Assembly (NCBI GenBank): GCA_030998225.1
Contig: JAPYXD010000522.1
Coordinates: forward strand, 3,100,001 to 3,164,000
Origin: Diplolepis rosae
Lineage: Eukaryota; Arthropoda; Insecta; Hymenoptera; Diplolepididae
Length of the DNA stretch: 64,000 bases
Reading direction: 5' to 3'
Shown here: positions 3,133 to 58,100 of the stretch, one piece after another
Position numbering within the stretch: the stretch's first letter is position 1
How the letters are laid out: each line of letters begins with the position of its first letter
Program-made: the position numbers and the translations under genes
Notes under the pieces: model-generated
What the model was told of the DNA's origin: nothing
The model's input: the letters and a program-made list of their open reading frames with translations, nothing else
The model's database searches: none

Positions 3133-3482
3133 GAATCAACGCCACATTTCTGGATGCTAAGATGGACAATCCTGATGATGATAATTATATTTCTGCGCCC
3201 GAAGAATCACAATTACACTTCAAGAAATTCTTGTGTTCAATACTCTATGATGGTAATCAAATACTTACCGGAGTCTTTATTTCTAGGATACATGTCTTAA
3301 CAGTAGCCTATCGGTTACATATCAACGCGACCACAAGAGTAGACATGGCAAAGTTAACAGTTTCTTACAACAAAAAATTTAATTCTTCCCAACCGTTAGA
3401 GCCAATTATATGCCAAGTTAAACAGATGCACATTGAAAACTACACGTATGGATCGTTTGTTAATAATATTGTAGTCCTAGTA
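3133..3482 (+). CDS. SPH copy A, exon 2
   Basis: The acceptor is TTTTGTGCAG before 3133 and the donor is GTAAGT at 3483. The exon starts with two bases of a split codon and ends in phase 0 (116 further codons). It encodes the N-terminal half of a chymotrypsin fold: HVLTVAYRL replaces the usual LTAAHC (catalytic His is Tyr) and VNNIVVLV replaces NDIALL (catalytic Asp is Asn). From about 3230 to 3482 it is nearly identical to copy B. The upstream part, encoding an Asp/Asn-rich linker, differs strongly and is one codon shorter. Confidence 0.75.
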
Positions 3483-4109
3483 GTAAGTATTCAGATAAAA
3501 ACACTGTCAAGTTATATCAAATATTGTAGCTATTTTATAAGTACTCCCCTAGTCGAAATTTCCAATGGGAAAATCCCTATCGATATTTGCTCCATAAATT
3601 GGTATTAGTGTAAGATTCAATTTTCCGAACCGTTAGATCTCACAAAATTTTTTTTTGTCATCCTAATATCTGCCGCCCAGAGTATAAAGGTAGTTAACTA
3701 CATTTGACTGGAATTTGATAAAATCATTAAGCAAAAATTTTCTTTCAGAATGAAATGAAAAAATTATTATTTTTTTTTGTAAAACCGTCTCTAAGACAAT
3801 TAAGGCATGCTTAATCTAATTCTTTTTAAAAAATTGAGTTTTTTAATAGCAACAATTAGTTTATGTAGTTACATTTTCCGGACGAAAATACTCGCTCAAA
3901 AGGCCGTAACTGCACTTATGGCTTTTCATCAAGGAATAGCGTCCGAACCCGGGCCTGTTTCCAAAGCAAGAAGGTTGTCAACTACATTTGTGTGAGTTAA
4001 ATGCATAAAACTTCTTGATTTTCTAACTTCCAATTTTAATACTTACGTTTTCTAATCTATGAAACATAATTTTATAAATAGTATATAAATATATAAATAA
4101 ATGAATATA
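3483..4109. other. Intron 2 of SPH copy A, non-coding
   Basis: It matches 48639-49190. It contains a degenerate repeat with the phrase AAGGCCGTAACTGCACTTA (3900-3918), related to sequence at 8160-8340 on the other side of the gypsy insertion. No gene is seen. Confidence 0.5.
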
Positions 4110-4350
4110 TGTAAAGTACATTGTACTATTTAAATTATCCGGTGGACTTAAGTCGTGTAGATAAGGTAGATTACTGTTCGTGCTAAGGAGAGCGGAAGAA
4201 GACTAACGTGTGGTGATAAAGCAAGTTATTGAAAGCTATTAAAGAATATATAATATAATAATAAATAAAAATATTCTTTTTACAGAGAAACACAACTTGT
4301 TATTACTCTGCCCTGGTTCTAATTATAATAGAACGAGAAAGAACATTTTA
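4110..4350 (+). repeat. 5' LTR of the gypsy relic
   Basis: It shares start, a GTAGATTACTGTTCGTGCTAA core and the end GAGAAAGAACATT with the 3' LTR, but lacks a central segment present there (7890-8010). Confidence 0.75.
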
Positions 4351-5411
4351 AAACGACATTATCGTTAAGGAAAATATCTTAAACATGGAAAAACTGGAAT
4401 TTGGATTTGAGGAAAAAGCGTCGGAAGACAGAAAAAGCAACATAATTTTTCTAACCCTAATTATGACTCAAGACAATAAACGCTATGTCATGCCAAAAGA
4501 ATATCAAAATATGACTGCACACCCTGCTTGGAAATACGTAAATTCGGCTTATGGTAGAATAAAAAACACTTTAAAAAAAAGACACTTTAAACTATTGAAG
4601 ACTTATTTAATGAAGTGTGAAAATTGGAACATTTAATTGATAAGAAGTTTGGTGGGAAAGAAATGAGCAATACAGAAGTAAACTAAAAAAATCACCATGT
4701 AAACAATGTTAAACTAATAATAAAGGAACACGTTTCCACTCAGAAGATGACTGTTGGTTTAAGCCAAAGGAAAATGAAAAAAAGGAAAAAGTAGAATTTA
4801 TTAATAATGAAGAATTAGAAGACGTAATAAAAGAAGAATCAAAAAACCGACTTTGATATCATTGATAAAAATAAAAGTATTGCTTAATGATTTTCTTGAA
4901 GTGAATGGTATTTATGACTCCGGGTCAAACATATCCCTAATAAATTCAAAATTAATCAAAATAAATTAAAGACAAGTAAGCAATTCTGAAAGAACAAACA
5001 TAAAAACAATCAATGGTGTCAGGGGACGGATGGTTTGATATGTGTAAAAGTGAAAATCTTAGAAATTGAAAGAAAAAAAACCTTATTGTCATAAACAGCG
5101 AATATTTTGACCATGATATTCTAATTGGTTTAGTTTGCATAAAGGAATTTAGTTTTTGCCATGATGAAAATTTAGAAATCACACAGGTAAATGTTAAAAA
5201 TAAAATTGATAAAAATTTATCAAAAAATGTAAATAGCGAAGATGATAAGATATTAAAGAGACAAAAACATTTAACTATAAACTTCAATGAAAATTCTTAC
5301 GAGAAAAACTTTGAAATACAAATAAATCACCTAAACTGACAAGAGAAAAGCAAAATCAATAATTTAATAGGAGAATACAAGGAAATTTTTGCGAAAGATA
5401 AATACGATGTA

Positions 5412-6027
5412 CCAGGTGTACAAGTATGAAACCGGTAATTTTTTTGAGAAAATACACGTTTATTTAATAAAAATGGTTATACATTCAATCTTCAAAGTAA
5501 TGGCCATTGCTAGCCACACATTTTTACCATCTCTCTGGCAATTTGTGTATGCCTCGCCAAAAAAATTGTTCGTTTTTTGAGTCAAACCAGTCATCGAGCC
5601 ATTTTTTCACATTTTCGTACGAATCGAAGCGTTGTTCAGCAAGTGCGTGCCCCATTGATGAAAATAAGTGGTAGTCAGATGGAGCCAAGTCTGTTGAATA
5701 AGCCGCATGGGGGAGGGCTTCCCAGCTGTACGAATTTACCAATTCCCGAGTCTTTTTTGTTCGATGTGCTGGTGCATTGTCATCAAGAAAAATCATTTTG
5801 TGTTGCCTAGTTTGATATTCTGGACGTTTTTGGCGTAAAGCACGATTCAAATCGGCCAATTGTTGTTGGTAGCGTTGACCAGTAACTGTTTCACCTGGTT
5901 TCAGAAGGTCAAACCAGATAACACCCTTCTGATCCCAATCTTCGAACTGTTTTGGTGGTTTTCCACGATCTTCGTTTCTCACATCAAAATTACCACTTTT
6001 GAATTTTTTAAACCGCTCGAAACACTG
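5412..6027 (-). mobile_element. Truncated mariner inserted in the gypsy relic
   Basis: The left terminus CCAGGTGTACAAGTATGAAA follows a TA at 5410-5411. The minus-strand frame 5524-5982 encodes the C-terminal half of an irritans-type mariner transposase, with [10 protein letters not shown] for the second catalytic Asp and [15 protein letters not shown] for the third (DD34D type). The right part, including the N-terminal DNA-binding region and right TIR, is lost where gypsy sequence resumes near 6028. The same family is at 57564-58464, at a different site, so these are independent insertions. Confidence 0.85.
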
Positions 6028-7755
6028 GACATAAACTCAGATTTTTGGTCGATACCGCTAAAAATCGAAGATAAAGCGAAAGCAGGTTTTATCACTCAAG
6101 AAGGCCATTTCTAATGGACCTGTTTACCGTTTGGTCTGAAGACGTCACCAGCAATTTTCCAAAGAATCTTGACCAACATAATTTTAAAGAAAACCTTTCC
6201 GGCTCTACAGTAAACTATATCGATGATATATTAGTATTCTCAGAAACTTTCAATGAACATATGCAGCATTTAAGAAAATAACTAGATGCAATAAAAACTG
6301 AAGGATTCAGATCTAAATTCATAAAGTGTGTTTTTGCCAAAGACTGCGTGAAATATTTTATCTAAAACTCAAAATAAAAATTTACACAGATGCTAGCATG
6401 AAAGAAATTGGTGCAATATTGAAACAAACTCAAGAAAATAGTGAAGAAAAACCAATAGCGTATTTTTCCAGAAAACTGAATGATACACAAAAAAAAGCCA
6501 TATATTTGGAATGCCTAGCTGTAAAAGAAGCCGTAAAATACTGGCAATATGATTAATAGGGAGAAAATTTGAAGTTTAAACGGATTACAAACCGATGGAA
6601 AATCTAAACTTGAAGCGCAGAACAGATGATGAACTAGGCGATATGAAATATTATTTGTCACAATATGATCTTTAAAAAAATGCGCCCCTGGCAAATACAG
6701 TCTTGAAGGAGACTGTTTAAACAGAAATCCGGTATTGGAACCAAACGGAGAAGAAAAGCTCAAATTTGTAAATCTAATGACTACAGAAGATATCAAAGAA
6801 GACCAAATGAGAAATGAACGTTATACGCAAATCAAAATAAACTAATTAAAAATGAGAAATATACTACAAAAAAGGAACTAAAAAGATGAAATAATACTCT
6901 CTGAAAAATTAAGTATAAAGTTTATTAAAAAAATTCATGAATACTATTGACACAATCGGAGGATTCGGCTGAGCGAGATAAAAAAAAAGTATCTTCACCT
7001 ATTGTTTGACCATTTTACTAGATATGCTTGGATGACGACGTCGAAAACTCAAAATGTAGGAGACTTCATAAAATTAGTAATAAAAACTGCTGATGAAGAT
7101 AAAATAGGAATGGTACTCACTGATATCCAGGCATCAACTCAGGAGAATTCAAAAACTATCTAAAAGAAAAAGAAATACCATTAGTGTTTCCAGCAATAGA
7201 TTCACCTTTTTCAAATAGTCTCAACGAAAGGTTAAACCAAACTTTGGTAACTAAAATTAGGTTCACAATTAATGAAGAGAAGAAAAAATTGCATGGGCAA
7301 CGATCGCCCAAGAATGTATAAAAGGATACAAAAAAACAGTACACACAATCACAGGTTTTGCACCCAAATATTTTCTAGTGGGTAAGAATAGAACAATTCT
7401 ACCAGAAGAATTAAAACAATGTAAAACACCGGAAGACTTACAAGAAGATAGAAAAACTGCATTCCAAAACACGTCAAAATCTAACAACTATAACAAAACA
7501 AGTTAAACAGGAAAAAGCTCGATGAAGTCAGCATTGGACCACATGAAATTGCGAAATAAATATCCAAGTCATTTCATGAAATAAACACAGGACATAGAAA
7601 GAAAAAGTCAAATTTGTTACACAGTACAGAAATTAATACCCTGCCCTACGAAAACAAGTGACTAAAGAAGATAAGGACGAAATATAAACAAACAAAAAAA
7701 AGAATAATGCATATAAAAAAATTTTCCGCGAAAATTTTTATCCCAGGAGGGGAGA

Positions 7756-8095
7756 TGTAAAGTACATTGTACTTTTTAAACTATCCGGCGAACGTAAGAT
7801 GCGTAAACAAGGTAGATTACTGTTCGTGCTAACGAGAACGGAGGAAGACTAAAGTGTGGCGATAAGGCAAGTTATTGAAAGCTATTAAAGAAATTAATTG
7901 TTCAACATTTGTAATCAGAGAAAGAACAAATTTTTAAATTAGGACATTTGATGTCCTTTTTCCTCTCACAGGTGGGTTTGTAATAAGTGTAAATATTAGT
8001 GCACATAATAAATTAAAATATTCTTTTTACAGAGAAACACAACTTGTTATTATTCTACCCTGATTCTAATTATAATAAAACGAGAAAGAACATTA
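7756..8095 (+). repeat. 3' LTR of the gypsy relic
   Basis: It begins TGTAAAGTACATTG directly after the purine tract at 7745-7755 and ends near GAGAAAGAACATT. A TA-rich microsatellite (8093-8160) follows. Confidence 0.75.
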
Positions 8096-8605
8096 TATAT
8101 ATATATATATATTATACAATATATAAATATAAAAATACATAAATATATAATATATATTGCAGATACGACTCTTTTCTTTGGAAAACGGGCCCAGAGCTCG
8201 TGTGAATTCCAAGACAAGAAGGCCATAACTACATAATGACCTTTTTATTTTGAATCAAGGAGTATTCTTCGATGCTCCTGCCAGAGAAGAAAGCCGTAAG
8301 TGCAGTTATGACACTTTTTCCTGGCAAAGTCATGACGTATTTGAGGTTTCTTTCTATTTTCATGTTAGTTATGACACTTAATTACTTCGAAAAATCTAAT
8401 TGAATCTAAACTATCGTACTTTAGATTTTTTTAATTAAAAAACCATTGCGATTTCTTTGAAATGACAAACACAATAAAACGCGAAATTTCTTCATAAATC
8501 GAATGATATAAAAAAGTCATTTTCGCTCCCTTGCAACACAATATACTATTATGGATGTTACGGGGAGAGTCCCTTGCCTTTTACTTAATTTCAAGCTTAA
8601 CTATA

Positions 8606-8899
8606 CAGGGTTTGCCATTTAACAATTGGGAAATATAGAAAACACTTCCAAAGTGGTGTCTTCTACCCAAACTGTAAGAAATTCACGAAAAAAAATTGGC
8701 AAAAATGAAGTGCATTCATCGCAGTTTGTGGATCAATTTGTAAATCGGGCTCGTGACCAGCAGTGGCAGTCAGTTGAATAATGTAGTGTTTCATTCTTAA
8801 ATGGTAAGGTTCAATCTTTCTAATAAAACCTTCCTTTTGGAAAATATCCATAAGTTTTTTTAGCCGATTCAAGTCTCAAATGTTAGATAGCCAACCCTG
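8606..8899. mobile_element. Short TA-flanked TIR element
   Basis: The left end TACAGGGTTTGCCATTTAAC and the reverse complement of the right end, TACAGGGTTGGCTATCTAAC, form an imperfect TIR with TA on both sides (8604-8605, 8900-8901). This is typical of non-autonomous Tc1/mariner-type elements. The 69-codon minus-strand frame inside (8663-8872) has no domain I recognise. Confidence 0.55.
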
Positions 8900-8901
8900 T
8901 A

Positions 8902-10190
8902 GTACTTCTTGATAGATGCGTAATAGTAAATAGAATTGTCAATTCGCTATACGCACCTTTCCAAGGTGGCAAATAATATAATCCGCTTGTTCTGCCAGAG
9001 CATTAAGTCGTCTCGAGACCCTCAATATTATGACGGGAAGTCCTAACAGTACAGTAAAAGTTACCGCAAACATTCACTTTCTGACTGTACACCCTCTCAC
9101 TCCTTTCTAATAGGAGTCTACTGGACCCGACACCTTTTTCTCCATTTACCGCTCTAACTCCATATTTTGAGGGGCCTACGCTGGAAAATTCTAAGAAAAA
9201 TATAGAAAGCGGAGAAATGAAGACACTCGTTCTCAAACTGCCCCTTCCTGATATAATTGGTGGCAAGTAACCAAAGAGAGAGAGTGAGAAAAAGAGAGGA
9301 GAGCGTAGACGTGAGGACGATGGATGACACTGGCCATACCCTTGAGTTCACAAAATGTACAAGAACTGTATGAGAGGAAAGAAGCCCAATTGCGAAAATC
9401 TGTCTAGAAAAAACGCATCTTTCCTCTACTAAGAATTCCCCTCAGTTTCCCCATCTACGACAATTTAGTAAGTTGCGCTCGGAGTTTTTTCTGGGGTATC
9501 AGAAAACGTCCACTCTTTAAGTATTTACTAGCGGGGGCACTCTAGTAAACTCCCTTCTATCAGCTTGAGGAACCGATAAATATCTATTCTCTAACTACTT
9601 TTAGGGAACCAAAAGGAGGCATTTTGTTCTTCTCTTTCCAAAACTCCAACTCATCCGAAAAACTGATAATTCGTCCTTTTCTGTCAATAACCTGAAGTAC
9701 CCAGGCAGTTTCCTACAGCGTATCTCTTCCGGAAACCAAGACATACTCTTCTACTTCTATCCAGTTATAGCGGGGGACGGGAGTAACTACCCTGAAATTT
9801 GTCTTTTAAATGTTCCAAATGGAAAAGGGGAAGAAGAAGTGCCCGTCAGAGGCCAGTAGAGACTTAGGGAGAAGTCTCGACCGTGCAGATTAAAATCAGG
9901 CCCAGAGGTTGTCGAAGGGAGCCAACAAGGCCCTACAGCAATACAGCCCGACTCAACCGGGGTTACAACTGTTTTAAGTACATTCCTATAAAAAAATAAT
10001 TGTAAATGAAGTGTAAGACCTTGCACCCTATGAAAAAAGTTATTTCAATATTTGTAGATTTTTTCCACCCGTTTTTCTTCGAATTTGATATTTTTTGGAA
10101 TATTGTGCTACTGAACACCATATGTTTTTTCTAAATGAAAATTGATACAGCCGTTCTTGAGAATACAACTTTTTTCTGTTCTTCTTCGTA
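8902..10190. other. Unassigned sequence unique to block A
   Basis: About 1.3 kb with higher GC than its surroundings and no convincing coding frame. It is absent from block B, where the gypsy relic (to 52399) joins directly to the equivalent of 10190. It holds a GAGA-rich patch at 9272-9300. It may be part of a larger mobile element, but I see no diagnostic ends. Confidence 0.4.
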
Positions 10191-10694
10191 ACCCAATACC
10201 TCCCATAAATTTTCTTTCAGATCACATCTTTTGGAAAATTTAATCTTACTACAATGCCAACTTATGGCAAATTAACGAATAGGATTCCTGAGGAAGGGGG
10301 AGCCCATACGTGCTTATTAGAATGATACATAGTTTACTATTTTTGGAAATGCTAAATGCACCGGCGTTTTTATGAGTTTTTGTTAAACTGTGAAAGATTA
10401 CCAAGAAAAAATTCATCGAAGAATATTTAGATGTCGCTACTTAATATAAAAGTTTTTGAATTTTGATTGAATAGGTTTTTTTTTCAAATAGTTTTCATTT
10501 TAATTCATATTTTTTACATTCTGGATATAATCACCATATAGGAAACAATATCGTTTTCTTGACGTTTCTTATACTTTTCGGCTTCGCTCACTTGCTTCTG
10601 CTGATCTTTGAAAAATATTTTACATCTACTTTCTCAGTCCTGCTGATCCTGCTGGTCCTACTAAACCCCAAAGTTTCCTGTTTTCCTCGCCAAA

Positions 10695-11350
10695 TCATGA
10701 CTCTGGAACCGCGTTAGCTTTTACTTCAGGGCCATGCTCTATAGGCGCACTACGCTGAGTTACGGCATGCTTCAGTTCCTCTAGAGGGTTTCTTGGTTTG
10801 AGACACCTTAATGTCTTTTGCCGATCTATGACCGAAGAAGCTACCGCAACCTGAGATGAGGTTGTGGACAGATCCACTTGCACCAGGGTGGTGTTTGAGG
10901 GTGGTCTTCTGCCACCTTCTGTCCTCCTTAACGCATATAAGCTCCAACAGATGATCCTTGGAGCAAGTCTCCCTAATCCCACGAACATTGACGTCCACTT
11001 CCTCAGGTTTTTGCCACTTCTTCAGGCCCTTCAAACTGGCCGTGTAGCTCACCCCTTCATTTGGCATTATTTACACCATTTCCGGGTGTCGACGTCTTGA
11101 AAACTCCAGTTTTTTAGCCTCCAGTTTAGGTTTTTGTTTTCGAAGGTTCTTCCTGGTCAGAACCTCCACCTACTCCTTCTCTTCTGTGGCAGTTCTCGAC
11201 CTCTTCACCTCTGGTTTCTTTGTTAAAATCCCCTGTGGTCTCATGGTCAGCTCTCTTGACTATTTCCGTGAGTCCGGAGCGGACATCATCCCGAGTTGTG
11301 AGACTGTCTGTCAGTCCTCATCCTCAAAGTTAACCCGGCATTTTTTACTT
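10695..11350 (-). mobile_element. Non-LTR retrotransposon ORF1 (gag-like) relic, block A
   Basis: Minus-strand frames 10695-11067 and upstream pieces contain [20 protein letters not shown], resembling the RRM-like ORF1 region of R1/jockey-type elements, in which a short arginine-rich strand is followed by a leucine-rich strand. The reading is shifted several times and no reverse transcriptase follows. It is duplicated at 53486-54120. The assignment rests on motif resemblance only. Confidence 0.45.
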
Positions 11351-11670
11351 GCCTGCTTCGTTTTCCTAACTTTTATAATTTCCAAAAGATGGTACTTTTA
11401 CGATTTGGAGCGCTACCTGCATTCATTATTTTTAATTCGAAAAAATGATTTTATATTTTGAAAGTATTTATGAACGCGCTGTAAAAGTTTTATTATAACA
11501 GTCCTTTATTCAGTCCTACAAAAAAATACATAAAAATACATTCGAAAAAACAGATGTCATACTAGAATAGAGACTTAAATCACATCGATAAATAATCTTT
11601 TTACTTTATTACCATAGTTTATTTTATCTTCTTATACAAACACATTAAGTGGTATTCATAATTTTCTTAA

Positions 11671-12402: not shown

Positions 12403-12429
12403 ATAAGCACCTGAGTTTGGTTGTGCATT

Positions 12430-12952
12430 TCCCGCTCCTAGATAAGAATTGTTTTTGATTGAAGGTTTTGATTAAAATTATTGATACGAGAACTGTCTGG
12501 AAATTTTGAAACGTTTGCGTGAAGCAGTGAGAAGAAAACGCCCGCACTTTTGGTCAAGTGGTGACTTGCTTCTCCATCACGATAATGCGGCAGCGCATTT
12601 ATCGAATCTTGTGCAGCAGTTTCTGAGTAAACACAGTATCGCATTGCTTCGACAGCCTCCGTACAGTCCAGACATAGCCCCCTGGGACTTTTGGCTGTTT
12701 CCAAAACTCAAAAAACTACTCAAAGGACAGCGAATCGATGACAAAACGACGGTTGAAAATAATGCGACGAGCGTACTCAAGGCCATCCCTAAAAGTGAGT
12801 TCCAGAACTGTTTCAAGAAGTGGAAACTTCGCTGAAACCATGTTATTCAATCAAGTGGGGATTACTTTGAAGAATGCCACCCGGCCGATGATGAAGAATA
12901 ACGCCAGCGCGGAGATATAAGGGTAGGCCCGATACTTTCCGGAAAGACCTCG
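12430..12952 (+). mobile_element. 3' half of a mariner transposon
   Basis: The + frame 12506-12895 encodes the C-terminal catalytic part of a mariner transposase, with LLLHHDNAAAH (second Asp) and PYSPDIAPWDFWLFP (third Asp), ending shortly after GDYFEECHP. The right TIR (TACTTTCCGGAAAGACCTCG, ending at 12952) is followed by TA. The 5' half and left TIR are missing. It is the same family as 37345-38296. Confidence 0.85.
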
Positions 12953-13678: not shown

Positions 13679-13964
13679 GTTGCAAATAAAAATAGAATAA
13701 GTTTTCGTAAGCCTCCTGTAGTAGACAAAAATCTGCCCAAGAAAGAAACATGCTATTCGTTATATATGTATATGAAGGAAACGATTCCTCCTGAAAACAT
13801 TCAAAGAACTTATGTTGACAATATAGGCATGACTAAGATGGAAAAAGAATCTTGCAGTAGCATTCCTGGTGTACATGAAATGGAAGAAAAGAAAAATTTA
13901 TATCATTGTTTTCAAACATTTGAAGTTCAATTTGAAGAGGTAAGAAATTGCGTAAAATTGTTAC
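13679..13964 (+). CDS. SPH copy A, exon 3
   Basis: The acceptor is TTTTTTGTAG before 13679. The donor GTAAGG at 13965 gives phase 1, which matches the terminal exon; a second good donor at 13940 (GAG/GTAAGA) would give phase 0. The exon encodes the middle of the protease fold, starting [20 protein letters not shown], immediately after the Asp102 strand as in chymotrypsins. It differs from copy B at 15 amino acids but at only 2 synonymous positions by my count. Confidence 0.7.
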
Positions 13965-14057
13965 GTAAGGATTAAACAAATCAAAATAATATTTTGTGAT
14001 ACGGACGTAGAAGAGTTAAGTCCTGACTACACAAAACTGTCTAACGAAGGTATCGCC

Positions 14058-14196
14058 ATACGTTGATATTTTTGTTTTTCTCCATACTTTGTGATAGTAG
14101 ATTTTGAGCAGACATTGTAATTGCTAAAATAGTGAAGCGCACTATCCAGCTGTTTTCGAGAAAATAGCGTTGGTGTATTTGCGTACTTCACATAGA
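14058..14196 (+). repeat. Left arm of a 3.5-kb-spaced inverted repeat
   Basis: About 139 bp here are the imperfect reverse complement of 17577-17716, anchored by ACGTTGATATTTTTGTTTTT at one end and GCGTACTTCA at the other. The same arrangement, with a shortened left arm, is at 55306-55390 and 59108-59250. They could be termini of one old element or two copies of a short repeat in opposite orientation. Confidence 0.6.
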
Positions 14197-19299: not shown

Positions 19300-22200
19300 G
19301 CGCGCCTATCCCGTTACCTTTTTACTAGCTTCAGTTAATGTGTCGATAGGATCGACCATCCGATAAGCCGCTTCACGGTTTCGGCGCACATAACTACGGA
19401 TTTATACAGGTGGGGATAGTAGCCCTACTGCGGTAGGGTTCCCATGATGGGCGAACCATCTTAAGACTCGAATTTTCTAAAAATATGAATTCTAATGAAA
19501 ATAAAGGAGATGGAGAGGTGAAGGCGCCAGATGCGCACTCACACACTCCCCCAGGGGCTGAGGGATGGAAAGACGTCCTTCAGCTCCTGAAGGAGCAGAG
19601 TATCAAAATGGAAGAGTTGGCTAGGGCTCTCAGCGTTATCCAGCAGGGTATGCTGAGAAAAAACCCTGGCCATGTTAAGGACAGTGTCAGTGAGGCAACG
19701 GAGGTGTTGAGCGGAATGCTCAACACCCACAAGTAACTACTAGAAAGCGGGATGGAAATCCATGCAAGGCTGGATTCCCAACCCGCCTCAAAAAATATGG
19801 GTATCTTCCGGAGACTGCGCTCTGCGTCTGGGAGATACTCCAAAAAGCTGACAAAGGGGGAAAAGAGGGTTACTCCTTCTCCCCCCGACGATCGGCTTCC
19901 TAAGAAAGGGAAGGATGGCGAATCGCCCTCGTACGCTGCGGCCACCAGAGGCCAGACCCCACAAAAGGATGGAGAATGGCAACTGGTGCAAAAATAGAAA
20001 AAGAAAAAAAAAGGAAAAGAAAGAGTGGCGGGGGTACGTGTGTACAGCTGCTACTTCTTTTCCAACGATCCTTTCGAGATCTTTGAGACCCAGATCCTCC
20101 TCCTTGAGGAAAGCATCAAAGAGGCTAGTGGGCAGTCCCTTGTTGCGGGCGACTTTAATGGTAAGTCGCCCGAGTGCGGAAAAGCCCGTCTGGACAGGAG
20201 GGGAATCTTGGTCGGTGAGATGGTCGCCAGGAATGACCTGATTGTATTGAATCGGGGCAGGGATTTCGCGTTCAGACGAGAAGCGGGGGGAGTCGATTAT
20301 CGACCTCACGATCGCTACGCCCCGTCTTGCCTCAAGGATAGGCGACTGGTGCATCCTTGAGGTAATAACCTTGAGTGACCACCAGAGAATTGAGTTTAGC
20401 ATCCAGGAACGAAGTCACTCAGTGGATACGGGAAGGGGCGGCAAGGTAAGGAGCCCCTCCTGGAACACAAAACGACTCAGGAAAGACAAGCTTCGCGAAC
20501 ATCTTGAAGAAACCAGGCTCATAGATGAGCTTGGTTGGGCAAGGTCTGCTGGGTCGTTGGAGGACACTGTGCGGGCGGCGGGGCGGGAAGTGGTCGCAGC
20601 ATATGATAAAGAAGGCCAGGCATAAAGAAAAGCCGACTTCAGTGCTGGAAAGACTTGATCGGGGAAGTCGAGAAGGATCCATGGGGTCTCGCCTTCAAAA
20701 TAATCACTAAGAGATTGATGACTAGAAGAATGACCCTGGGCCTGGATAATGTTGATCGAGTCAAATACATCGTGCGAACTTGTGCAGAGGTTGGTCCTGC
20801 TGAGGAAGGGCAACAAACCTCGAGGGGATGCCTCATCGTATAGACCAATATGTTTATTGGATACGATGGGGGAACTTCTGGAAGAAATAATCCTACAAAG
20901 ACTACAGGGTCACATGGTCCTCGAGAATGGTCTCTCGGAAAACCAGTTTGGCTTTCGGGAAGGCAGGTCCACACTTGACGCCATCCAGGCAGTGGTGGAC
21001 ATCGCCACTAAAGCAAGAATAGGAACTGGTAAGCGTAAGGGATTCTGCGCGTTGATCAGCATTGACATACGCAATGCGTTCAATACCGCGAGATGGAACA
21101 TTTGCATCGAGGCGATGGTACGGAAAAGGTTCCAGACTACCTATTGCAAATGATAGATCACTATCTGAGGGACAGGTGGGTGATATACGAGGGCGACAAA
21201 TGGTCTCTCAATGAAGAGATGACATGTGGCGACCCTCAAGGGTCGCGGGTGGGTCCATTCGTTTGGAACGTCATGTACGACGATTTCCTGCGCATGGACC
21301 TGCCTGCTGGAACGAGCATCATCGGCTTCGCGGACGACGCACTTGTTGTGTGCGCCGCTGACGACGTCAGAATCCTAGAGCTGAGGATCAATGAAAGTCT
21401 GTGGCGAGCAAAGCGTTGATTGGATAGCAGAAAATAGCCTGAAAATGGCCCCTGAAAAAACCGAGGCTCTGCTGGTCACGGACAGGAGATCCTTCCATTA
21501 TCCGAAGATCGTTCTCGGGGAACATGAAATCGAGTGGAAAAGGAGCATTAAGTACCTGTGAGTGCAGTTGGATCGAAAGCTTAGCTTCGGCGAACACCTG
21601 CAGATCACGACTGCCAAAGCCATCCAATGTGGGGCCGCTCTGACTCGGCTCATGCCCAACATTGGTGGACCCAGGGAAGCTAAGAGGAGGCTGGTGGCGA
21701 GCGTTGTAAATTAGAAGCTGCTTTATGCAGCTCTGATCTAGACAAGTGCCCTTAACAACCATGCTATCCTGAAGAAGCTGTTCTCCGCACGGAGAGGTAT
21801 TAGCTGGCGCAAGCGCTTTCGGGCCATGGTTGCTTTAATGCGTACCTGAAGCGCTTCAAGAAAAGATGACGATGAGGCGTGTCGCTACTGCGGCTCCCTT
21901 GCGGAAAATGCAGAGCACACACTCTTTGTCTGCGCTAGGTGGGCCGCGGAAAGGGAGGCTGTCGATCGGGCAGTGGGCGCAGCACTCACTCCTGACACGA
22001 TGGTCTCTCTCATGCTCCAGTCTGAACAGAAATGGATGCTTATCGGGTCATTCGTCACCCTGGTGATGAAGACGAGGGAGCTCGATGGGCGTGTAGAGCG
22101 TGGCAACAACGGGGACCAGTAGAAATTTCATCGGGGCCTACACCCGCGGTCCCGCGTTTTGGGCGGACTTGGCTGTCCGCGTCGACCGGGGGAGAAATCT

Positions 22201-22350: not shown

Positions 22351-22355
22351 AAAGA

Positions 22356-24737: not shown

Positions 24738-24918
24738 TGAAAGGTTCTTGAAATATGCCTATATACTCCTTATTTTAAAAATGCGAAAAAATTTGCGTTT
24801 TCATACCTGTAAAGTTTTATAATCTGGTGTAACTATAATTTTTTGAAAAAGTGTTCGATGTGTTGAAAATAATAATTTTAAATGCTTTTAAGGATGATAT
24901 GGGCAGTCCGATATTGAT

Positions 24919-24920
<2 letters not shown>
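24738..24920 (+). pseudogene. SPH copy A, remnant of exon 4
   Basis: The presumed acceptor is ATAACAG before 24738. The fifth codon is TGA (24749-24751) where copy B has TGG. The later segment from 24849 matches copy B through the active-site loop (DDMGSP, Ser195 position Met) and then ends at the (TA)n tract. It is a decayed terminal exon. Confidence 0.7.

Positions 24921-24921
<1 letters not shown>

Positions 24922-24964
<43 letters not shown>
24922..24964. repeat. (TA)n microsatellite
   Basis: About 43 bp of TA repeats replace the last part of exon 4. In copy B the homologous shorter TA tract (63559-63574) lies just after the stop codon, so the deletion in A probably joined GGTA in the exon to this tract. 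Confidence 0.85.
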
Positions 24965-24966
<2 letters not shown>

Positions 24967-24999
24967 TTCAAGCCATTTTAAAATTGAAAATTAATAATA

Positions 25000-43107: not shown

Positions 43108-43165
43108 ATGAGAATTTTGTTCACTATCCTAATGTGTGCATTTCCAATCATAGCTCATGGTCTTG
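43108..43165 (+). CDS. SPH copy B, exon 1 (signal peptide)
   Basis: An ATG with hydrophobic codons ([14 protein letters not shown]) ends in phase 1 at donor GTAAAT (43166). It is the only signal-peptide exon upstream of exon 2 that joins it in frame. Confidence 0.7.
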
Positions 43166-46100: not shown

Positions 46101-49100
46101 AAAAAATGGCTTGATTCGTGGATAGCCTCAAAAGATGAACTTTTTTACTGTAACGGTATTCGAAATCTACCAGAAATATGGGTAACAGTTGTAGCCAACG
46201 ATGGGAAATACTTTGAATGATTCATTTGTAACCATTTTTTCTCAATAAAGTTGCATTTTCATAAAAGAAATAGCGGGAACTTAGTTGCTCATCTAATAAA
46301 ATAATTGTGGAATGCTATCCGGAAGCAAACGAGTTCTACATGGGTTATTGGTACTCAAATTAAATTATTTTCATTCGTCACACTTGTGATGAAGACGAGG
46401 GAGCTCGATGGGCGTCGGCAGTGAAACAACGAGGAGTATCAGTAGAAATCACATTGGGGCCTACGCCCCTGGTCGCGAGTCCTTAGTGGACTGGGCTGCC
46501 ACGTCGGTTAGGGGAGGGATCCTTTCACTCCCCTGGCTGGTGCGGCTGGTCGGTTAAGCCTAATGGGCGAAGGTGCGGATTGGGGGGGGGGGGGACGAAA
46601 GAGTCGCACGCGACTATAAGCCGCAACCAATCGTTCGTGAACTTCAGAGCAAACAGGTGGTCCCGCGGGCGGTGTATTGGTTCGAAAGAAGGGGTCTTTG
46701 GTTTTGACAGGTATGCCTATTCTCGTCCTAGGAGAGTCCTGTACAACGTCTATAAAAGATTTCGCCATTTTTCCTCCTCACCCGAAAAGGAAAAAAAAAT
46801 ATATGAAAAATATTTTTCCAATGTGCTCTTTGGGTCTTTAAACGGGTCTAGTGTAGTTGTATCAGATATCTAAGGAATTATAGGTGTGGGCGTCTATCAG
46901 GGTCTAAACCGTCTCTAGCGGGGACACAGATTGACAAATTTGGTCAAAGTGCACTCTGGGTATCTAAACGTATCTACCGTGGTGGCATCAGAGATCCATT
47001 TAAAACCCTTCTTAAGACCGGATAAAACCCGGGACAGGACCTATTTGTAAAACCCTTGTACAACTCCGTATACACCCAGGTAGAAACACATTTTCTAATA
47101 GGGTTCTATCGGGTTCTAACGGTTTTTCTAACCAGGGGCGCTTCAATTAGGTTTAATTTTCTGGGCACTTATTATAGTTGCAAAACTTATATTACAGAAA
47201 AAGTTTCTAAAGCTAAGAGTATTTCAACTAAATCTGATTTACCAACAAAATCATACGCACCTCAGTCTATTACCTTAACCCGTTCGCTTATATACAATTG
47301 AAATACTAAAAAAGAATTCATTGTAAAAAGGTCTCGTCTAATTTTACGCCATATAAAAATGTAACTTCAATAGATAACAGGTTGAGGAATAAAATTACCC
47401 ATTTTTTTGTTATAAAAACTAAATTATAGCGGTGCTAACAAAATCTGGTTAATAGAACAATTTTGTTGTGTTGGCGTTATTCTTGTTTGAATTGTGTTAA
47501 ATTGCAAATTTTCATGTAATGAATTAAATTTTTAATTGCAATTCACAATTTTTTCTACACGAAAGAAATTGTCACCCGAAAACGAAGAAGAAGTGAGAAG
47601 AAGAAGAATAAGAAAAAGATTGCGTTCCACTGCAAGACTATATGCACATGCGCAGTTCAATTTCTACATTGTATTCCTCTGTAACGGAATATACAATATT
47701 CTTTTACTCTCAGCTGTAACGGAAAAACGAGTTTCCGCGGCTGAGGCACATAAAATAGAATATGTGCCAATGCACACAATTCGGGTCATTACGAGACTCG
47801 CTTGAAAGGCTGGCACGACTGATCGCGCTTCGGCTTCGTCTCAGCTTTGTCTCGGCTTCGTCTCGGCTTTGCCTCAGCTACGCCTCACCTAAGCCTCGAC
47901 TATGCCTTGGGTTCGATCTTCTGCGAGCATTGTCGCTCGTCGCGTAATAATCCTTATTATGCGCCCAGGCATATAATATACGCTGTATGGTTATAGGCAC
48001 ATTCGCAGTTCTATTGTTACTTAATACACTTCCATAACAACCACTTAAATTTACCAAATCCGTTTCCAAATTTATAGAATATCTTTCAATAATCATGCAA
48101 TAATCGTCTGTATCCTCTACTCCAAAATTTCTTTTATAAACTTCAAAAATTTTCCCTTTCTGCCCAAAAACTAACAAAGAATATTTACCAGTTAAGTAAT
48201 ATTACTGCGTTTTCTTTGTAATAAAGCTGACTTGAGGACTATGCACAGATTTATTTCGTGAATTTTTTTCTTCCTTTTTGTGCAGGAATCAACGCCACAT
48301 TTCTGGATGCTAAGATGAACGATCCTTATAATAATAATAATTATGTTTATGCGCCCAAAGATCCAGGATTACACTTCAAGAAATTCTTGTGTTCAGTACT
48401 CTATGATGGTAAACAAATACTTACCGGAGTCTTTATTTCTAGGATACATGTCTTAACAGTAGCCTATCGGTTACATATCAACGCGACCACAAGAGTAGAC
48501 ATGGCAAAGTTAACAGTTTCTTACAATAAAAAATTTAATTCTTCCCAACCGTTAGAGCCAATTATATGCCAAGTTAAACAGATGCACATTGAAAACTACA
48601 CGTATGGATCGTTTGTTAATAATATTGCAGTCCTAGTAGTAAGTATCCAGATAAAAACACTCTCAAGTTATATTAAATATTGTAGCTATTTTATAAGTAC
48701 TTCCCTAGTCGAAAGGACATAGCAGGATGAGCAAGTATGTGCTACCCCAATGGGAAAATTCCAGTCGATATTTGCTCCATAAATTGGCATTAGTGTAAGA
48801 TTAAATTTTCCGAACCGTTAGATCTGACAAAATTTTTTTTTGTCATCCTAACATCTACCGTCCAAAGTATAAAGGTAGTTGACTACATTCGACTGGAATT
48901 CGAGAAAATCAATAAGCAAAAATTTTCTTTCAAAATCAAGTGAGAAAATTATTATTTTTTTGTAAAACCGTCTCTAAGACAATTAAGGTATGCTTAATCT
49001 AATTCTTTAAAGAAAATTGAGTTTTTTAATAGCAACAATTAGTTTATGTAGCTACATTTTTCGGATGAAAATACTAGCCAAAAAGGCCGTAATCACTTAT

Positions 49101-52100
49101 AGCTGTTCATCAAGGAATAGCGTCCGAACCCGGGCCTGTTTCCAAAGCAAGAACGTCGTCAACTACATCTTTGTGTGAGTTAGATTATTAGATTATACTT
49201 TTTAAATCATCCTGCGGACTTAAGACGTGTAGATAAGGTAGATTACTGTTCCTCACTTCAAACTATTAAAAACTTATTTAATGAAGTGGGAAAATTAAAA
49301 CATTCAACTGATAAAAAGAAGTTTGGTGGGAAAGAAATGAGCAATAAGAAGTAAACTCAAAAAAATCACCATGTAAACAATGTTAAATTAATAATAAAGC
49401 AACACATTTCCACTCAGAAGATGACTGCTGGTTTAAGCCACAGGAAAATGACAAAAAAAGGAAAAAGTAAAATTTATTAATAATGCAGAATTAGAAGACG
49501 TAATAAAAGAAGAATAAAAAAACTGACTTTGACACCATTTATATAAATAAAAGTATTGCTTAATGATTTTCTTGAAGTGAATGGTAATTATGACTCCGGG
49601 TTAAACATATCCCTAATCAATTCAAAATTAATCAAAATAAACTAGAGACAAGTAAGCAATTCTGAAAGAACAAACATAAAAACAATCAATGGTGTCAGGG
49701 GACGGACGGTTTGATATGTGTAAAAGTGAAAATCTTAAAAATTGAATGAAAAAAAGCCTTATTGTCATAAACAGCGAATATTTTGACCATGATATTCTAA
49801 TTGGTTTAGATTGCATAAAGTAATTTAGTTTATGCCAAAATGAAAATTTAGGAATCACACAGGTAAATGTTAAAAATAAAATTTATAAAAATTTATAAAA
49901 AAATGAAGATGTCGAAGATGATAAGATATTAAAGAGACAAAAACATTTAACTCTAAACTTCAATGAACATTCTTACGAGAAAAACGTTGAAATACAAATA
50001 AATCACCTAAAAACTTGATCGAAGAATCATACAGCCCACTCTCTACCCCAGTGACGTTGGCGTACAAACTTGATGAAAATAAAAAATCGAGACTATGTAT
50101 AGATTTCCTCTTATTGAGGATTTAACGGGAAAAACAGCTGACTGCAAATATTTTTTGTAACTGGACATAACATAGCTTTTTGATCGATACCGCTAAAAAT
50201 CGAAGATAAAGCGAAAGCAGGTTTTATCACTCAAGAAGGCCATTTCCAATGGACCTGTTTACCGTTTGGTCTGAAGACGTCACCAGCAATTTTCCAAAGA
50301 ATCTTGACCAACATAATGAAAAAAAAAACCTTTCGAGCTTTACAGTAAACTATATCGATGATATATTAGTATTCTCAGAAACTATCAACGAGCATATTGG
50401 CAGACTGCAGAAAGGCAGAGGGGATAAACAAAACGATCGAGGCGTTCATGGTGGTGAAAATGCTAAAAGGCGTCGTAGAAGCGTAGCATAGTCTGCATAG
50501 TAGACTGTTGTAAATATTGAATATTATTGTTTATTTCTACAATGGTTAGTAGTTGTTGTGTATTTAATTGTAAAAATACACACGAAAATAGTACGTGTGA
50601 ATTTTACAAATTCCCTAGACATGCTTACAAAAAAAATCAAAAGGAAAAGTGGATTGCTGCTGTACAGCGAGTTCAGTAAGATACCATAACCAAACTTTTA
50701 GTCAGCGGCAATGCCTTCAATACAATACTTGTGTATTTACATTTAGACGTTTTTTTCTAGCCCGAATGGATCTAAATGGATTTTAAAACCACATCATGTT
50801 ATATGCAGTGAGCATTTTGTCGGGTATAAAAAATCAGATTGTTATTTAAGCCCTAGCTACATTCCAACTGTATTCTCTTCTGAAGGTCGAGATGAAGTTA
50901 ATGAAAAGCGCGTACTTAACAGGTATAAATAGATGATTTGAGTGTATTGCTAATGTAATATATTGTTTATTATAAAAAAATTATTTATTTTTAGACACAA
51001 ACGATTTTTAAAACGGAGAATGTCAAACCAAATAACGAAAAATAACACAAACATGGAAAAACTCGACCAAATTGTTCACATGAACTTGATACTTTCCTTA
51101 AGTATCACTTGCTCTTGATTATACAATTTCAAGAAGAATAAATAATTGAACATTTTAAAACTTTTACTCACAATTAACTTCGTAGAGTATGGTGTCGAAG
51201 ATACTGATGCTTGTCTAATTATATTAGCAGAGATTGTATAATAATTTACATCAATTTTATGCTCTTCTTGCACAAATCGAGCATGTCCAGCTTCTACTAG
51301 AGCTTTACCTTTCGACATTGTTTCAGGTTGGAACTGAATTTTATAAGATATTTTTTGAAACCCAGTTTTAATTATAACATTCATAATTCATCTAAAAGAG
51401 AAAAGGTTTCATTCATATTACATTTTTTCAAATCAAGTTTTCATATGAAATGACAGATTAAGAATTATAAAACTATGAAAACATTAATATATTTTGCAAT
51501 TTTTCATTTTATAAGTATATACTTATTACTTAGTCTAATATTTACATTTTAATAACCTAAAATGACGCAGTGAAAATTAATAGTTACACTAGAAAATTTT
51601 ACTTACTTTCAGTTTTCTATTCCCCACGTATTTAAAAACATTATTATTCTCTTTTTCAAACTTATTACTTTTATTTATACGAGCTTTTATTAAAAATCTC
51701 ATAAAAGCTGAACCTTTATCAATGTTATTCTTCCGACGCTTTCGAACGCTTTCACCGAGAGCGGCGCTACCTGTCTTTCTGCAGTCGGCCAATACAGCAT
51801 TTGAGAAAATAACTAGATGCAATAAAAACTGAAGGATTCAGATTGAAATTTATAAAATGTGTTTGCGCCAAAGACTGCGTGAAATATTTAGGACATATTA
51901 TACAGAATAATTGTGTACGTCCACTAAAAGATAATAATATAAAAGATAAACTTTTATAACAAATATGACAAAGACAGTGCAATCATTTTGGACCCACTAC
52001 ACAATTTGTCAAGGAAAAATCAAAAATTCATATGGACAAGTGAGTGTGAAGAATCATTCAACAAAATAAAATTATTATTATGCAGTGAACCAGTCTTGGG

Positions 52101-55100
52101 CACATTTGATCTAAAACTCAAAATAAAAATTTACACAGATGCTATCATGAAAGGGATTGGTGCAATATTGAAACAACCTCAAGAAAATGGTGAAGAAAAA
52201 CCAATAGCGTATTTTTCAAGAAAACTGAACGATACACAAAAAAGAAGAAAGTCATATATTTGGAATGCCTAGCCGTAAAAGAAGCCGTAAAATACTGGCA
52301 ATATCGATTGATAGGGAGAAAATTGGAAGTTTTAACAAATTACAAACCCTTGGAAAATCTAAACTTAAAATGCAGAACAGATGATGAACTAGGGAATATG
52401 ATTCCTTTCTTCTTACTAACCCAATAACTCCCATAAATTTTCTTTCAGATCACATCTTGTGGGAAATTTAATCTTACAACAATGCCAACTTATGGCAAAT
52501 TAACGAATAGGATTCCTGAGGAAGGGGGGAGCCCATACGTGCTTATTAGAATGATACATAATTTAAGATTTTTGGAAATGCTAAATGTACCGCCATTTTT
52601 ATAAGTTTTTGTTAAACTGTGAAAGATTACCACAAAAAAATTCATCGAAGAATATTTAGATGTCGCTACTTAATATAAAAGTTTTTGAATTTTAATTAAA
52701 TATGTTTTTTTTTTAAATAGTTTTCATTTCAATTCATATTTTTTTACATTCTGGAGATAATCACCATATAGGAAACAATATCGTTTTCTTGACGTTTCTT
52801 ACACTTTTCGGCTTCGCTTACTTGCTTCTGCTGATCTTTGAAAAATATTTTTCATAGCGCCTCTTTTGAAAATCCGATTTTTGGTACCTGTAAAGCGGGA
52901 CGAAACTGCGATTTTCAACCCTAGGGGCGAAACTTTAAGGGTAGGGTTGCAAACCGAACTTTCGTCCCGCTTCACAGGTAACGAAAATCAAATTCTCAAA
53001 ACAGTTGCTATGAAATAGTATATTACATTACAGGGGGGAAACACGGCGATTGCAAACGAGTGTGAAGTTTGCTGCACGAGCGAAGAGAGGGCTGCAGTCA
53101 CACGAGTTGCATTCGCTGTGTTTTGTTTCGAGTAATGTATGCTATTTTTCATAGCAACTGTTTTGATAATTTGATTTTCGGTACCTGTGAAGCGGGACGA
53201 AAGTGCGGTTTGCAACCCTACCTTTAAAGTTTCGCCCCTAGGGTTGAAAATCGCAGTTTGGTCCCGCTTTACAGGTACCGAAAATCGGATTTTCAAAAAA
53301 GGCGCTTTGAAAAATAGTATACATTACTCGAAACAAAACACAGCGAATGCAACTCGTGTGACTGCAGCCCTCGCTTCGCTCGGGCAGCAAACTTCACACT
53401 CGTTTGCAATCGCCGTGTTTCGCCCCTTGTAATGTAATATACTATTACATCTACTTTTTCAGTCCTGCTAATCCTGCTGATCCTACTAAACCCCAAACTT
53501 CCCTGTTTTCCTCGCCAGATCATGACTCTGGAACCGCGTTAGCTTTACTTCAGGGCCATGCTCTATAGGCGCACTACGTCGAGTTACGGCGTTCTTCAGT
53601 TCCTCTAGAGGGTCTTTTGGTTTGAGATACCTTAATGTCTTTTGCCGATCTATAACCGAAGAAGCTACCGCAACCTGAGATGAGGTTATGGACATATCCA
53701 CTTGCACCAGGTTGGTATTTCGGGGTAGTCTTCTGCCACCTTCTGTCCTCCTTAACGCATATAAGCTCCACCAGATGATCCTTGGAGCAAGTCTCCCTAA
53801 TCCCACGAACATTGACGTCCAGTTCCTCAGGTTTTTGCCACTTCTTCAGGCCCTTCAAACTGGCTGCGATGCTCACCCCCTCATGTGGCATTATTTGCTC
53901 CATTTCTGGATGACCACGTGTTGAAAACTCCAGTTTCTTAGCCTCCGGTAAATATTATTTCTCGACCTCTTCACCTCTGGTTTCTTTGTTAAAATTCCCT
54001 GTCGTCTCATCTTCAGCACTCTAGACTATTTCCGTGAGTCCGGAGTGCACATCATCCCGAGTTGTGAGACTGTCAGTTCTCATCCCTAAAATCACCCCGG
54101 CATTTTTTGCATGCGTGCTTCGTTTTTCTACCTTTTATAATTTCCAAAAGATGGTACTTTTACGATTTGGAGCGCTACCTGCATTCATTGTTTTTAATTC
54201 GAAAAAATGATTTTATATTTTAAAAGAATTTATAAACGTGCTGTAAAAGTTTTATTATAACAGTCTTTCATTCAATCTTTCAGAAAAATACATAAAAATA
54301 CATTTGAAAAAACAGATGTCATACTAGAATAGATAACAATGTAAAGGTAGTTAAGTAAGGGGTTTTCTAAAATTAAGGATGTTTTTTGCATCTGAGGGTG
54401 GTTTAAGAAGCTGGTACTATTGACTTTTTTATCACAATATCTTTAAGTCATTATCTATATTTTGTCCGCTATATGAAATCAGTAATCATAAGAACTTGTA
54501 AACACAAATTTTCGTAAATAATAAGGGCTGACTTTTACACGTAAGGGTAGTTTTGCAAGAATTAGGAATTATAAAAAAATATCTTCTCCTATGATTCTAT
54601 CTGACTCAAATACTGCATCTATTTTGAATGTGCGTTACGTCAAAGAAACACAGGTTATAAAGAGTTAAACATGACTTCAATTACATCCCAGCTGAAAATT
54701 GTTCAAAAATAATTATTCTATAATTCAAAAAATTTATCAACACAGAATATCTATTAGGAGGAACCAAAACTATTATAATTTTATGTTTACATCTAACTGG
54801 TTCAGAAATAATAGAAACAGGAGTATGCGATTTACGTTACAGTCAAGTTCGACTTCTCAAATAAAAGAATGCATATTTAATATGTACTGATACAATCCAT
54901 TCAGAAAATCTTGTTTTTTGTAGGTTGCAAATAAAAATAGAATAAGTTTTCGTAAGCCTCCTGTCGTAGACAAAAATCTGCCCAAGGAAGAAACATGCTA
55001 TTCGTTATATATGTATATAAAGGAGACGATTCCTCCTGAAAACATTGAAAGAACTCATGTTGACAATATAGGCATAATTAAGGTTGAAAAAGAATCTTGC

Positions 55101-58100
55101 AGTAGCATTCCTGGTGTAGATGAAATGGAAGAAAAGAAAAATTTATATCATTGTTTTGAATCATATGCAGTTGGATTTGATGAGGTAAGAAATTGCGTAA
55201 AAGTGTTACGTAAGGATTAAAAAAATCAAAATAATATTCTGTGATACGTACGTAGAAGAGCTAAATCCTGACTATACAAAACTTTCTAACAAAGGTATCG
55301 CCATACGTTGATATTTTTGTTTTTCTCCATACTTTGTGATAGTAGAGTTTGTGCAGACATTGTAATCGCTAAAAAAGTGAAGCGCTATCCAGTTTCTCAA
55401 TTAGTAGGCGAAAGGCTCTAGGTTCGATACCGAGCGCCAAGCGTCTAGGCGATTATTGCATGCGCACCCTTAATTCCCTAGCGAACTGGCTGAACGATAG
55501 CTTTACGCTGTAGCGTAACATTATCGTAAAGTTATTGTAAAGTAGCATTATAACTCATGAATGAGACAAAATAAACATTCAAAATGTTTTTATCCTTATT
55601 CTACGTTGAAAATAACGTTAACTGGTAATTGAAATATGCAATAATTTTATTTGTTTACGCTAAAAATTAAGAAAACATAATACCTGTTATTGAAGGCAGT
55701 GCAGTGGTTCATCACTTTTCATGTCTTCACCGTCAGGATTGACTATTTGTTAGAGTGAGATGAAAGTATAGTTGTGTCTCACTCCAACCAATGGTGAACT
55801 TTAACGGAGAAGTTCCATAAAAGGTGAACCACTGCACTGCCTTCAATGACAGGTATTATATTTATTTTAATTTTTAGCGTAAACAAATAAAATTATTGTA
55901 TATTTCAATTATCAGTTAACGTTATTTTCAACGTAGAATAAGGATAAAAACATTTTGAATGTTTATTTTGTCTCATTCATGAGTTATAATGCTACTTTAC
56001 GATAACTTTACGATAATGTTACGATAATGTTAGGCTATAGCGTAAAGCTATCGTTCAACCAGTTCGCTAGGGATTAAACCAAGTGTGCTTGGGATTAGAT
56101 GGATGATTCGTTAGCATTTAGTTTCGTATGCCACGCCTTTATCGAGTCAACCGAGTGTTCGACTCACAAGAAATTTTAGGGAGAAAGGAGAGGCTCAGAG
56201 TGTGTGTGTGTGTGTGTGTTGAGGAAAGAGCACGGAAAAAGGAGTGTGTGAACCAAACGGGTTCGGACGGGGAACCCGAGGATTTTCTAACCTCTTACAT
56301 GTACATCCAAGCATCCGATTATAATAAATTACCTACAAAACCAACTTGACATGGTGTTCGAGCATTGCTGATCTAAAGGATTACGATCCTATCGCTGCAA
56401 GTCAGCCAGAAATAAGTTTCTAACTTTCTAAATGTGGGGTTACAACCCTATTTCTAACCAGTTTTGTACAGAAGTCTCAAGTGTGCAGGCCCACGCTACG
56501 TGGCGTCAAGAACGTTTGATTCTCCATCTTGGTGCGCGCGTGAAAGGAAATGTCGAAACAAGAAAGAGCATGTATACCTTTTCGAAAAGATACATTTGTT
56601 GATTTTCAGCTAACAGATACGTATCCAAGCGATCCACTCATTCCTGGACTTGAACAACTCAACAGTTGTCCACTGAGTAATTCAAGAGACGGGAATCGTT
56701 TTGGAATGCCGTCCTCGATTGACGTGTTCGGGGATTCGAAAAAAATACAGTTTGAAAGCAGTTGTAGTGTTAAAAGTGCCGCAAGTGAAAATACCAAGTG
56801 GTTAAATTGCTAGGCTAAGGGATATGTATAGCGTGATTATCCCGAGTCCCGCCGCGATCTCACATGCGCGCGTTGAAAAGAATAAGTCCATGGTATGAAA
56901 AACTGCACGAAACCGATACCCAGTGGCGAAATAAACACAGTGAAAGTGAATCACGTTTTAGAAAATATTCTTTAATGCATATATAAAAAGTGCATTGGCA
57001 ACTGTTCACACCATGTCCTGTTAACATAATTAATGCAAGTAACTCAAAAGTATGTTTCATAAAGCATATAATTGAATGTTTTATCATTTTGTGCTAATTT
57101 GTAAGAGTTGTTTTTCTTGTCAATTTCAACCAATTTTAAAATTTCTGCGCTATACAAGATATTCTCTGGTTCTCTACGAAAATACAAATTAGGAAATTAC
57201 TTTATTATATATTATATTATTAATATTATTTTAAATTCTAACTTCGTAATCTACGTCGCAAGCTACGTAGTAAACCGCGACGTATGCTACGCAGTTCACT
57301 ATCCCAATTTTACACGTAGTTTACGACCCCAATTTTAAACGTAGTTTACGCTCCCAATTTCCAACGTAATGTACGACGTAGCTTACGATGTGGTTTACGA
57401 CATAGTTTAGGACATTGGGATCAACAAGCGGTGGCGCTATTGTTAATACCGATATTCTTTTTAACATGTTGTAACCGTAGCAACCATAGTTTGCTATTCT
57501 TTTGAAATCTGATGGTATAAATCATTGATTCATGTTTAAAACTTTTCCGCACTTAAGAATGTACCACCAGGTGTACACGTATGAAACCGGTAATTTTTTT
57601 GAGAAAATACACGTTTATTTAATAAAAATGGTTATACATTCAATCTTCAAAGTAATGGCCATTGCTAGCCACATATTTTTCCCATCTCTCTGGCAATTTG
57701 TGTATGCCTCGCCAAAAAAATTGTTCGTTTTTTGAGTCAAACCAGTCATCGAGCCATTTTTTCACATTTTCGTACGAATCGAAGCGCTGTTCAGCAAGTG
57801 CGTGCCCCATTGATGAAAATAAGTGGTAGTCAGAGAGAGCCAAGTCTGGTGAATAAGCCGCATGGGGGAGGGCTTCCCAGCTGTACAAATTTACCCATTC
57901 CCGAGTCTTTTTTTTTCGATGTGCTGGTGCATTGTCATCATGAAAAATCACTTTGTGTTGCCTAGTTTGATATTCTTGACGTTTTTGGCGCAAAGCACGA
58001 TTCAAATCGGCCAATTGTTGTTGGTAGCATTTGACCATTATCTTCATCCAATAATGCTTGCAATTCGGCATCTTCAAACTTTTTCGGTGGTTTTCCACGT

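Follow-up and report, generated by a model that had tools for sequence, protein, structure and literature searches.

The window analysed here, 64,000 nt of the Diplolepis rosae contig JAPYXD010000522.1 (C266; assembly GCA_030998225.1; positions 3100001–3164000, forward strand), contains two members, copies A and B, of a tandem array of four genes arranged along the contig in the order C, A, B, D. Exons 2 and 3 of copy C are at contig positions 3038142 and 3051414 and those of copy D at 3175407 and 3182693, on the same strand as the others. Across the whole genome (757.7 Mb, same assembly as the window), copy A exon 3 used as a DNA query matches four places at E≤0.001, all on this contig and all on one strand; as a protein query it recovers the same four places plus a weak, stop-containing match (E 1.4), and copy A exon 2 recovers the same four copies together with 26 distant matches. 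Similarity among the copies is collinear across tens of kilobases, interrupted by large unmatched insertions, and non-coding divergence between copy pairs is 4.7–8.8% up to 300 nt from an exon and 6.9–10.8% beyond that distance. The four copies are a young birth-and-death cluster of an already known kind of gene. Searches of genome and viral contig collections confirmed no relatives, and a literature search with serine protease homologue (SPH) terms, judged from listings, one abstract and passages of one review, brought up no paper on this array.

All four copies share a four-exon gene model with intron phases 1, 0 and 0, and exons 1–3 are open in each of them. Exon 1, present in every copy, codes for the signal peptide (18 letters in the shared model) and ends in phase 1; exons 2 and 3 have phase-0 ends and AG and GTAAG splice signals throughout. 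Exon 3 of all four copies closes at the donor GAG|GTAAGA, and the exon 3 ends given in the earlier note, 13964 and 55209, lie 25 nt beyond it. In each copy the frame would continue for 11 codons if this donor were read through, but a gene ending in exon 3 was rejected once exon 4 had been found downstream. A search for exon 4 by motif gave no result. It was located in copies C and D with the help of paralogues of equal intron phases on contig C349, and was afterwards recovered by alignment in copy B and, as a remnant, in copy A. Its acceptor (AAG|G) has no strong pyrimidine tract, which makes the start of the exon less certain. Exon 4 is complete in B and C, truncated in A and six codons shorter in D (exon 4 near contig position 3189298), where the stop precedes that of B and C.

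Within the window, all exons lie on the plus strand. Copy B comprises exon 1 at 43108–43165 (a 19-letter signal peptide followed by a phase-1 donor), exon 2 at 48286–48638, exon 3 at 54924–55184 and exon 4 at 63398–63544; the last reads ADMGCPLL...NKWI followed by a stop and has Met where the catalytic Ser would stand. Exon 1 of copy A lies outside the window at contig position 3095211 and carries a Leu8Pro change in the signal peptide. Exon 2 of this copy (3133–3482) is open between a phase-1 acceptor and a phase-0 donor, exon 3 (13679–13939; phase 0/0) is open up to GAG|GTAAGA, and the exon 4 remnant (24893–24994) keeps ten codons before a TA repeat of 21.5 units that replaces the C-terminal part present in B, C and D; the 33 nt directly upstream of exon 4 are also missing. 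Copy A thus has a disabled coding sequence, its exon 4 being truncated, and retains open exons 1–3 with splice signals, exon 1 with the Leu8Pro change. Two database entries were compared with the array as proteins. The 148-residue P0003 (ENA) equals the copy A exon 2 frame continued by read-through into A's own intron 2; it differs only at residues 32, 34 and 45, so part of the difference shown by copy A varies between sequenced sources; P0004 equals copy D across exon 2.

Several other elements are present in the introns. Copy A intron 2 holds transposase fragments at window positions 5527–6036 (minus strand) and 12485–12832 (plus strand), with matches to Pfam Transposase_1 (E 3.7e-13) and DDE_3 (E 4.2e-6, slightly under the cut-off), and intron 3 of the same copy holds a reverse transcriptase fragment at 20734–21150 (plus strand; RVT_1, E 2.3e-13). 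A THAP-domain reading frame lies in copy B intron 2 at 50524–50679 (plus strand; E 2e-6). Close inverted repeats, fold-back-like, occupy 52839–53427 and 55511–56026 in copy B introns, with arms of 165–189 nt that are 92–96% complementary, and the segments 5411–5710 and 57566–57865 are 98% copies of each other.

The array genes apparently encode secreted, non-catalytic serine protease homologues. All three catalytic positions are replaced: LTVAYRL, VNNIAVL and DMGSP stand at the places of the reference motifs LTAAHC, NDIAL and GDSGGP, with Tyr, Asn and Met in the positions of His57, Asp102 and Ser195 of chymotrypsin. The spliced copy B protein has no match to the Pfam Trypsin profile at E≤1. 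Searching the own genome with copy A exon 2 gives two best paralogues at E 4.3e-4 and 6.1e-4 and three weaker matches (E 0.07–0.2) whose exon 2s score 28.9, 37.3 and 24.6 bits, above the Trypsin cut-off of 20.6 bits. Two full-length paralogues, P1 and P2, share the intron phases 1, 0 and 0 and have 24–25% full-length identity to the copies; P1 falls below the cut-off (19.8 bits approximately spliced, 17.6 bits exactly spliced), and P2 has no Trypsin match at E≤0.1. A chymotrypsin-like fold is therefore only an inferred property of the array proteins, since the cut-off is passed by some distant exon 2s and not by the two full-length paralogues. Sequence searches of solved structures returned two weak, unrelated matches in one case and none in another, and the stretch ahead of the protease-like part, where a clip domain was looked for, contains no cysteine after the signal peptide. 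The wider trypsin-like family is large in this genome, with 1172 first-look candidates, 150 scored and at least 157 matches; members lie on contigs C349, C352, C370, C382, C284 and others, several of them close together.

Comparison of copies A and B reveals a bias toward replacement changes. Exon 2, with B's extra codon left out, contains exactly the 15 replacements and one silent change counted by eye in the earlier note, and exon 3, taken as far as its donor site, contains 18 changes, or 15.5 replacement and 2.5 silent when pathways are averaged, close to the 17, 15 and 2 previously reported. The neutral benchmark of about three replacements per silent change is closely matched: with a mutation spectrum derived from the introns, 75.4% of random coding changes in exons 1–3 are replacements. 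Against this proportion, the 30.5 replacement and 3.5 silent changes of exons 2 and 3 together give a one-sided binomial p of 0.019 or, with the half-counts rounded the other way, 0.055, and the departure of this pair from neutral proportions is borderline. The NG86 estimates for the same exons are dN 0.065, dS 0.029 and omega 2.25 (binomial p 0.16; Fisher p 0.27), and none of the six copy pairs is significant by this method over exons 2 and 3. Extended to all four copies, exons 1–3 contain 57 replacement and 8 silent changes (one-sided p=0.0115 against 75.4%); B, C and D with exon 4 included, counted over 42 exon 4 codons with A absent, contain 59 and 12 (p=0.069).

Codon models were fitted with our own GY94 script and omega was tested against 1; the p values come from many overlapping, uncorrected tests on one small data set. 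The maximum-likelihood omega for A and B is 3.24 over exons 2 and 3 (p=0.030) and 2.45 when exon 1 is added (p=0.070). For the four copies, exons 1–3 give 2.22 on a star tree (p=0.023) and 2.15 when A is joined with C and D with B (p=0.031). Copies B, C and D give 2.41 over exons 1–3 (p=0.027) and 0.47 over exon 4 alone (p=0.19). Pairwise, one of the six comparisons over exons 1–3 falls below 0.05 (C–B, p=0.047), as do none of the three over exons 1–4. Site models favor M2a over M1a for the four copies (p=0.0001 on the star tree, 0.0025 on the resolved tree) and for B, C and D (p=0.0009 over exons 1–3, 0.017 over exons 1–4), with p=0.071 for A and B.

These tests leave room for an account in which no positive selection acts, unconstrained loops drift, the GAT/AAT repeat slips and the ratio is inflated because silent changes are few, whether by chance or through mutation; we consider this possible and put it forward tentatively. 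In its favor, the entire coding sequence, represented by exons 1–4 of B, C and D, does not have an omega significantly above 1 (1.44, p=0.25), and the nominal signal in exons 1–3 (p 0.02–0.03) is fragile: omega for the four copies drops to 1.87 (p=0.084) without codons 31–37 and to 1.51 (p=0.28) without codons 31–46. Modelling uneven divergence along the sequence, of the sort that gene conversion creates, also absorbs most of the M2a signal, the M2a/M1a p values becoming 0.026 for the four copies (star tree), 0.068 for exons 1–3 and 0.44 for exons 1–4 of B, C and D, and 0.099 for A and B. With uneven divergence modelled, however, the four-copy omega for exons 1–3 is still 2.33 (p=0.020), which speaks against drift as the sole cause. 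Comparisons within the wider family were made by translating 16 paralogous exon 2s and comparing ten of them in nine pairs, six of which fall within one four-gene cluster that includes a member, L027, apparently frameshifted in its first part. These give omega values of 0.83–1.74 with dN up to 0.28, and none departs from neutral proportions (p 0.58–1.0). Fast protein change thus seems common across the family, with the four copies at its upper end.

Non-coding sequence flanking the exons provides a second neutral reference. The flanks aligned in all four copies show 185 changes at 1358 sites, a count that excludes gapped columns and includes promoter and splice sequence. Base-specific rates from these flanks predict 67.1 replacement and 21.9 silent changes in exons 1–3, compared with the 57 and 8 seen (P(replacement≥57)=0.87; P(silent≤8)=0.0015), so that replacements stand at 0.85 and silent changes at about 0.37 of the flank expectation. 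The replacement-to-silent ratio is therefore high because silent changes are scarce. Changes per site amount to 0.186 beyond 1000 nt from the exons and 0.143 within 300 nt, and because distant introns are more diverged, replacements would look still less excessive against them. The earlier note had proposed intron divergence as the neutral reference for a claim of diversifying selection; overall, this reference shows no excess of replacements, as an account without selection would have it, and residues 21–63 carry more replacements than predicted (22 where 12.9 would be expected; P=0.012 for this post hoc segment).

The shortage of silent changes invites another explanation, which overlaps the others: nucleotide-level selection on splicing or codon signals, or conversion directed at exons, may hold back the silent sites of exons 1–3, in which case dN/dS would be uninformative about selection on the protein. 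The size of the deficit, which in B, C and D is 6 silent changes against 18.6 expected, and the presence of the conversion-like tracts described below are consistent with this. Yet exon 4 of B, C and D shows no such deficit (6 seen, 4.3 expected), and conversion should reduce replacements as well, whereas those in residues 21–63 exceed expectation. We consider this explanation rather unlikely.

Replacements are unevenly distributed along the protein, gathering behind the signal peptide and in the last part of exon 3. The densest 30 codons hold 22 of them, a value that none of 5000 uniform simulations attained, and the largest step between successive replacements is 34 codons (p=0.0026). Eight of the 22 replacements in residues 21–63 fall at codons 31–37, and the 14 others lie away from that repeat-bearing stretch, which counts against an account without selection. 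Because the segments were delimited after the data had been seen, the P of 0.012 multiplied by five segments is about 0.06. The hypervariable stretch, codons 31–46, occupies 3165–3212 in copy A, with GAT GAT GAT AAT at codons 34–37, and 48318–48368 in copy B, which has an extra TAT codon beside AAT AAT AAT AAT. The conserved core of exon 2 follows (codons 64–136; 3264–3482 in copy A), with 8 replacements in the four copies against 21.3 expected, and proximal exon 3 (residues 137–179) has 6 against 12.5. Distal exon 3 (codons 180–223; 13808–13939 in A, 55053–55184 in B) has 18 replacements against 13.9 expected (P=0.17) and no silent change across the four copies. In the alignment with paralogues, the first cluster lies in a length-variable stretch ahead of the first Cys of the protease-like part and the second directly before DMGSP, and both variable segments may correspond to surface loops. 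The exon 2 core is either constrained or shaped by conversion; in four of the six copy pairs it contains one of the pair's four longest stretches of identity, and constraint therefore seemed the simpler reading.

Long identical tracts are present elsewhere in the array. Copies A and C share an unbroken 379-nt identity (13781–14159 in A) that takes in the last part of exon 3 plus 220 nt of the following intron, compared with a simulated 99th percentile of 114 for the longest run. A and D are identical over 337 aligned columns further on, across the joint of two alignment blocks (99th percentile 126), and upstream of exon 1 C and D agree over 166 nt (99th percentile 107). Gene conversion is the natural reading of these tracts, one of which crosses an exon–intron border, and it breaks the assumption of a single tree on which the codon tests depend. 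It is also conceivable, if doubtful, that the array works as a diversity-making cassette, in which conversion would homogenize the copies while selection retains different residues in the two variable segments, with silent differences being erased and replacements kept.

The counts give no support for linking the replacement bias to copy A. Private changes in exons 1–3 number 5 replacement and 2 silent in A, 6 and 1 in C, 14 and 3 in D, and 18 and 2 in B, leaving out ten columns without a single odd copy; the changes are unrooted, paralogues at 24–25% identity being too distant to serve as a root. One-sided p values are 0.77, 0.46, 0.37 and 0.098 for A, C, D and B, respectively. No copy's excess is significant alone, A's seven changes giving little power, and the nominal excess is largest on the intact B and absent on A. 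The earlier note had placed diversifying selection between A and B before copy A broke, that is, before its C-terminus was lost. The A–B omega of 3.24 and the 30.5 to 3.5 split would suit such a history, but the private changes of A are at the neutral ratio, though few, and A's residues 32, 34 and 45 differ from the otherwise equal P0003. We regard this history as very improbable; copy A is a truncated member of the array with no replacement excess of its own.

Taken together, we give a probability of about one half to the reading that this is a young tandem array of dead protease-like genes with a constrained scaffold and fast, possibly diversifying loops. The broader proposal of diversifying selection survives in part: omega nominally exceeds 1 in exons 1–3 and residues 21–63 show an excess, but replacements overall fall short of the flank expectation and significance is lost with exon 4 included or without codons 31–46. 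Diversifying selection on the loops is a fair possibility on these sequence comparisons. The product would be a binding protein built on a constrained protease scaffold, with loops that may evolve as fast as neutral sequence or faster, in part through diversifying selection and in part through tolerance of change in a loop and a trinucleotide repeat. The deficit of silent differences in exons 1–3 would lift dN/dS further, and gene conversion would disturb the selection tests.

Comparable systems are described in other insects. According to a review (PMC13301370), Vn50 of Cotesia rubecula is a non-catalytic venom SPH that, like the array proteins, is protease-like and secreted and has its catalytic residues replaced; unlike them, it has a clip domain, whereas the array proteins lack cysteine in that region and copy B has no Pfam Trypsin match. 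The array product may bind instead of cleaving. The Leptopilina RhoGAP venom paralogues, described in the same review (PMC13301370), form an expanded enzyme family in which most paralogues have lost catalysis and positively selected codons are reported; they belong to a different family and their sites were probed by mutagenesis, whereas the array is known here from sequence alone. A study of the APL1 immunity genes of Anopheles funestus (PMC9222773) describes paralogues with high replacement diversity that its authors ascribe to gene conversion, in another protein family and from population data, whereas the array offers divergence among copies in one assembly.

The striking ratio of replacement to silent changes calls for caution, as it is due in large part to too few silent changes and to a single stretch of 16 codons. 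If the loops are indeed under diversifying selection, the array would let one follow, in a small natural experiment, how proteases without catalysis acquire new binding targets.
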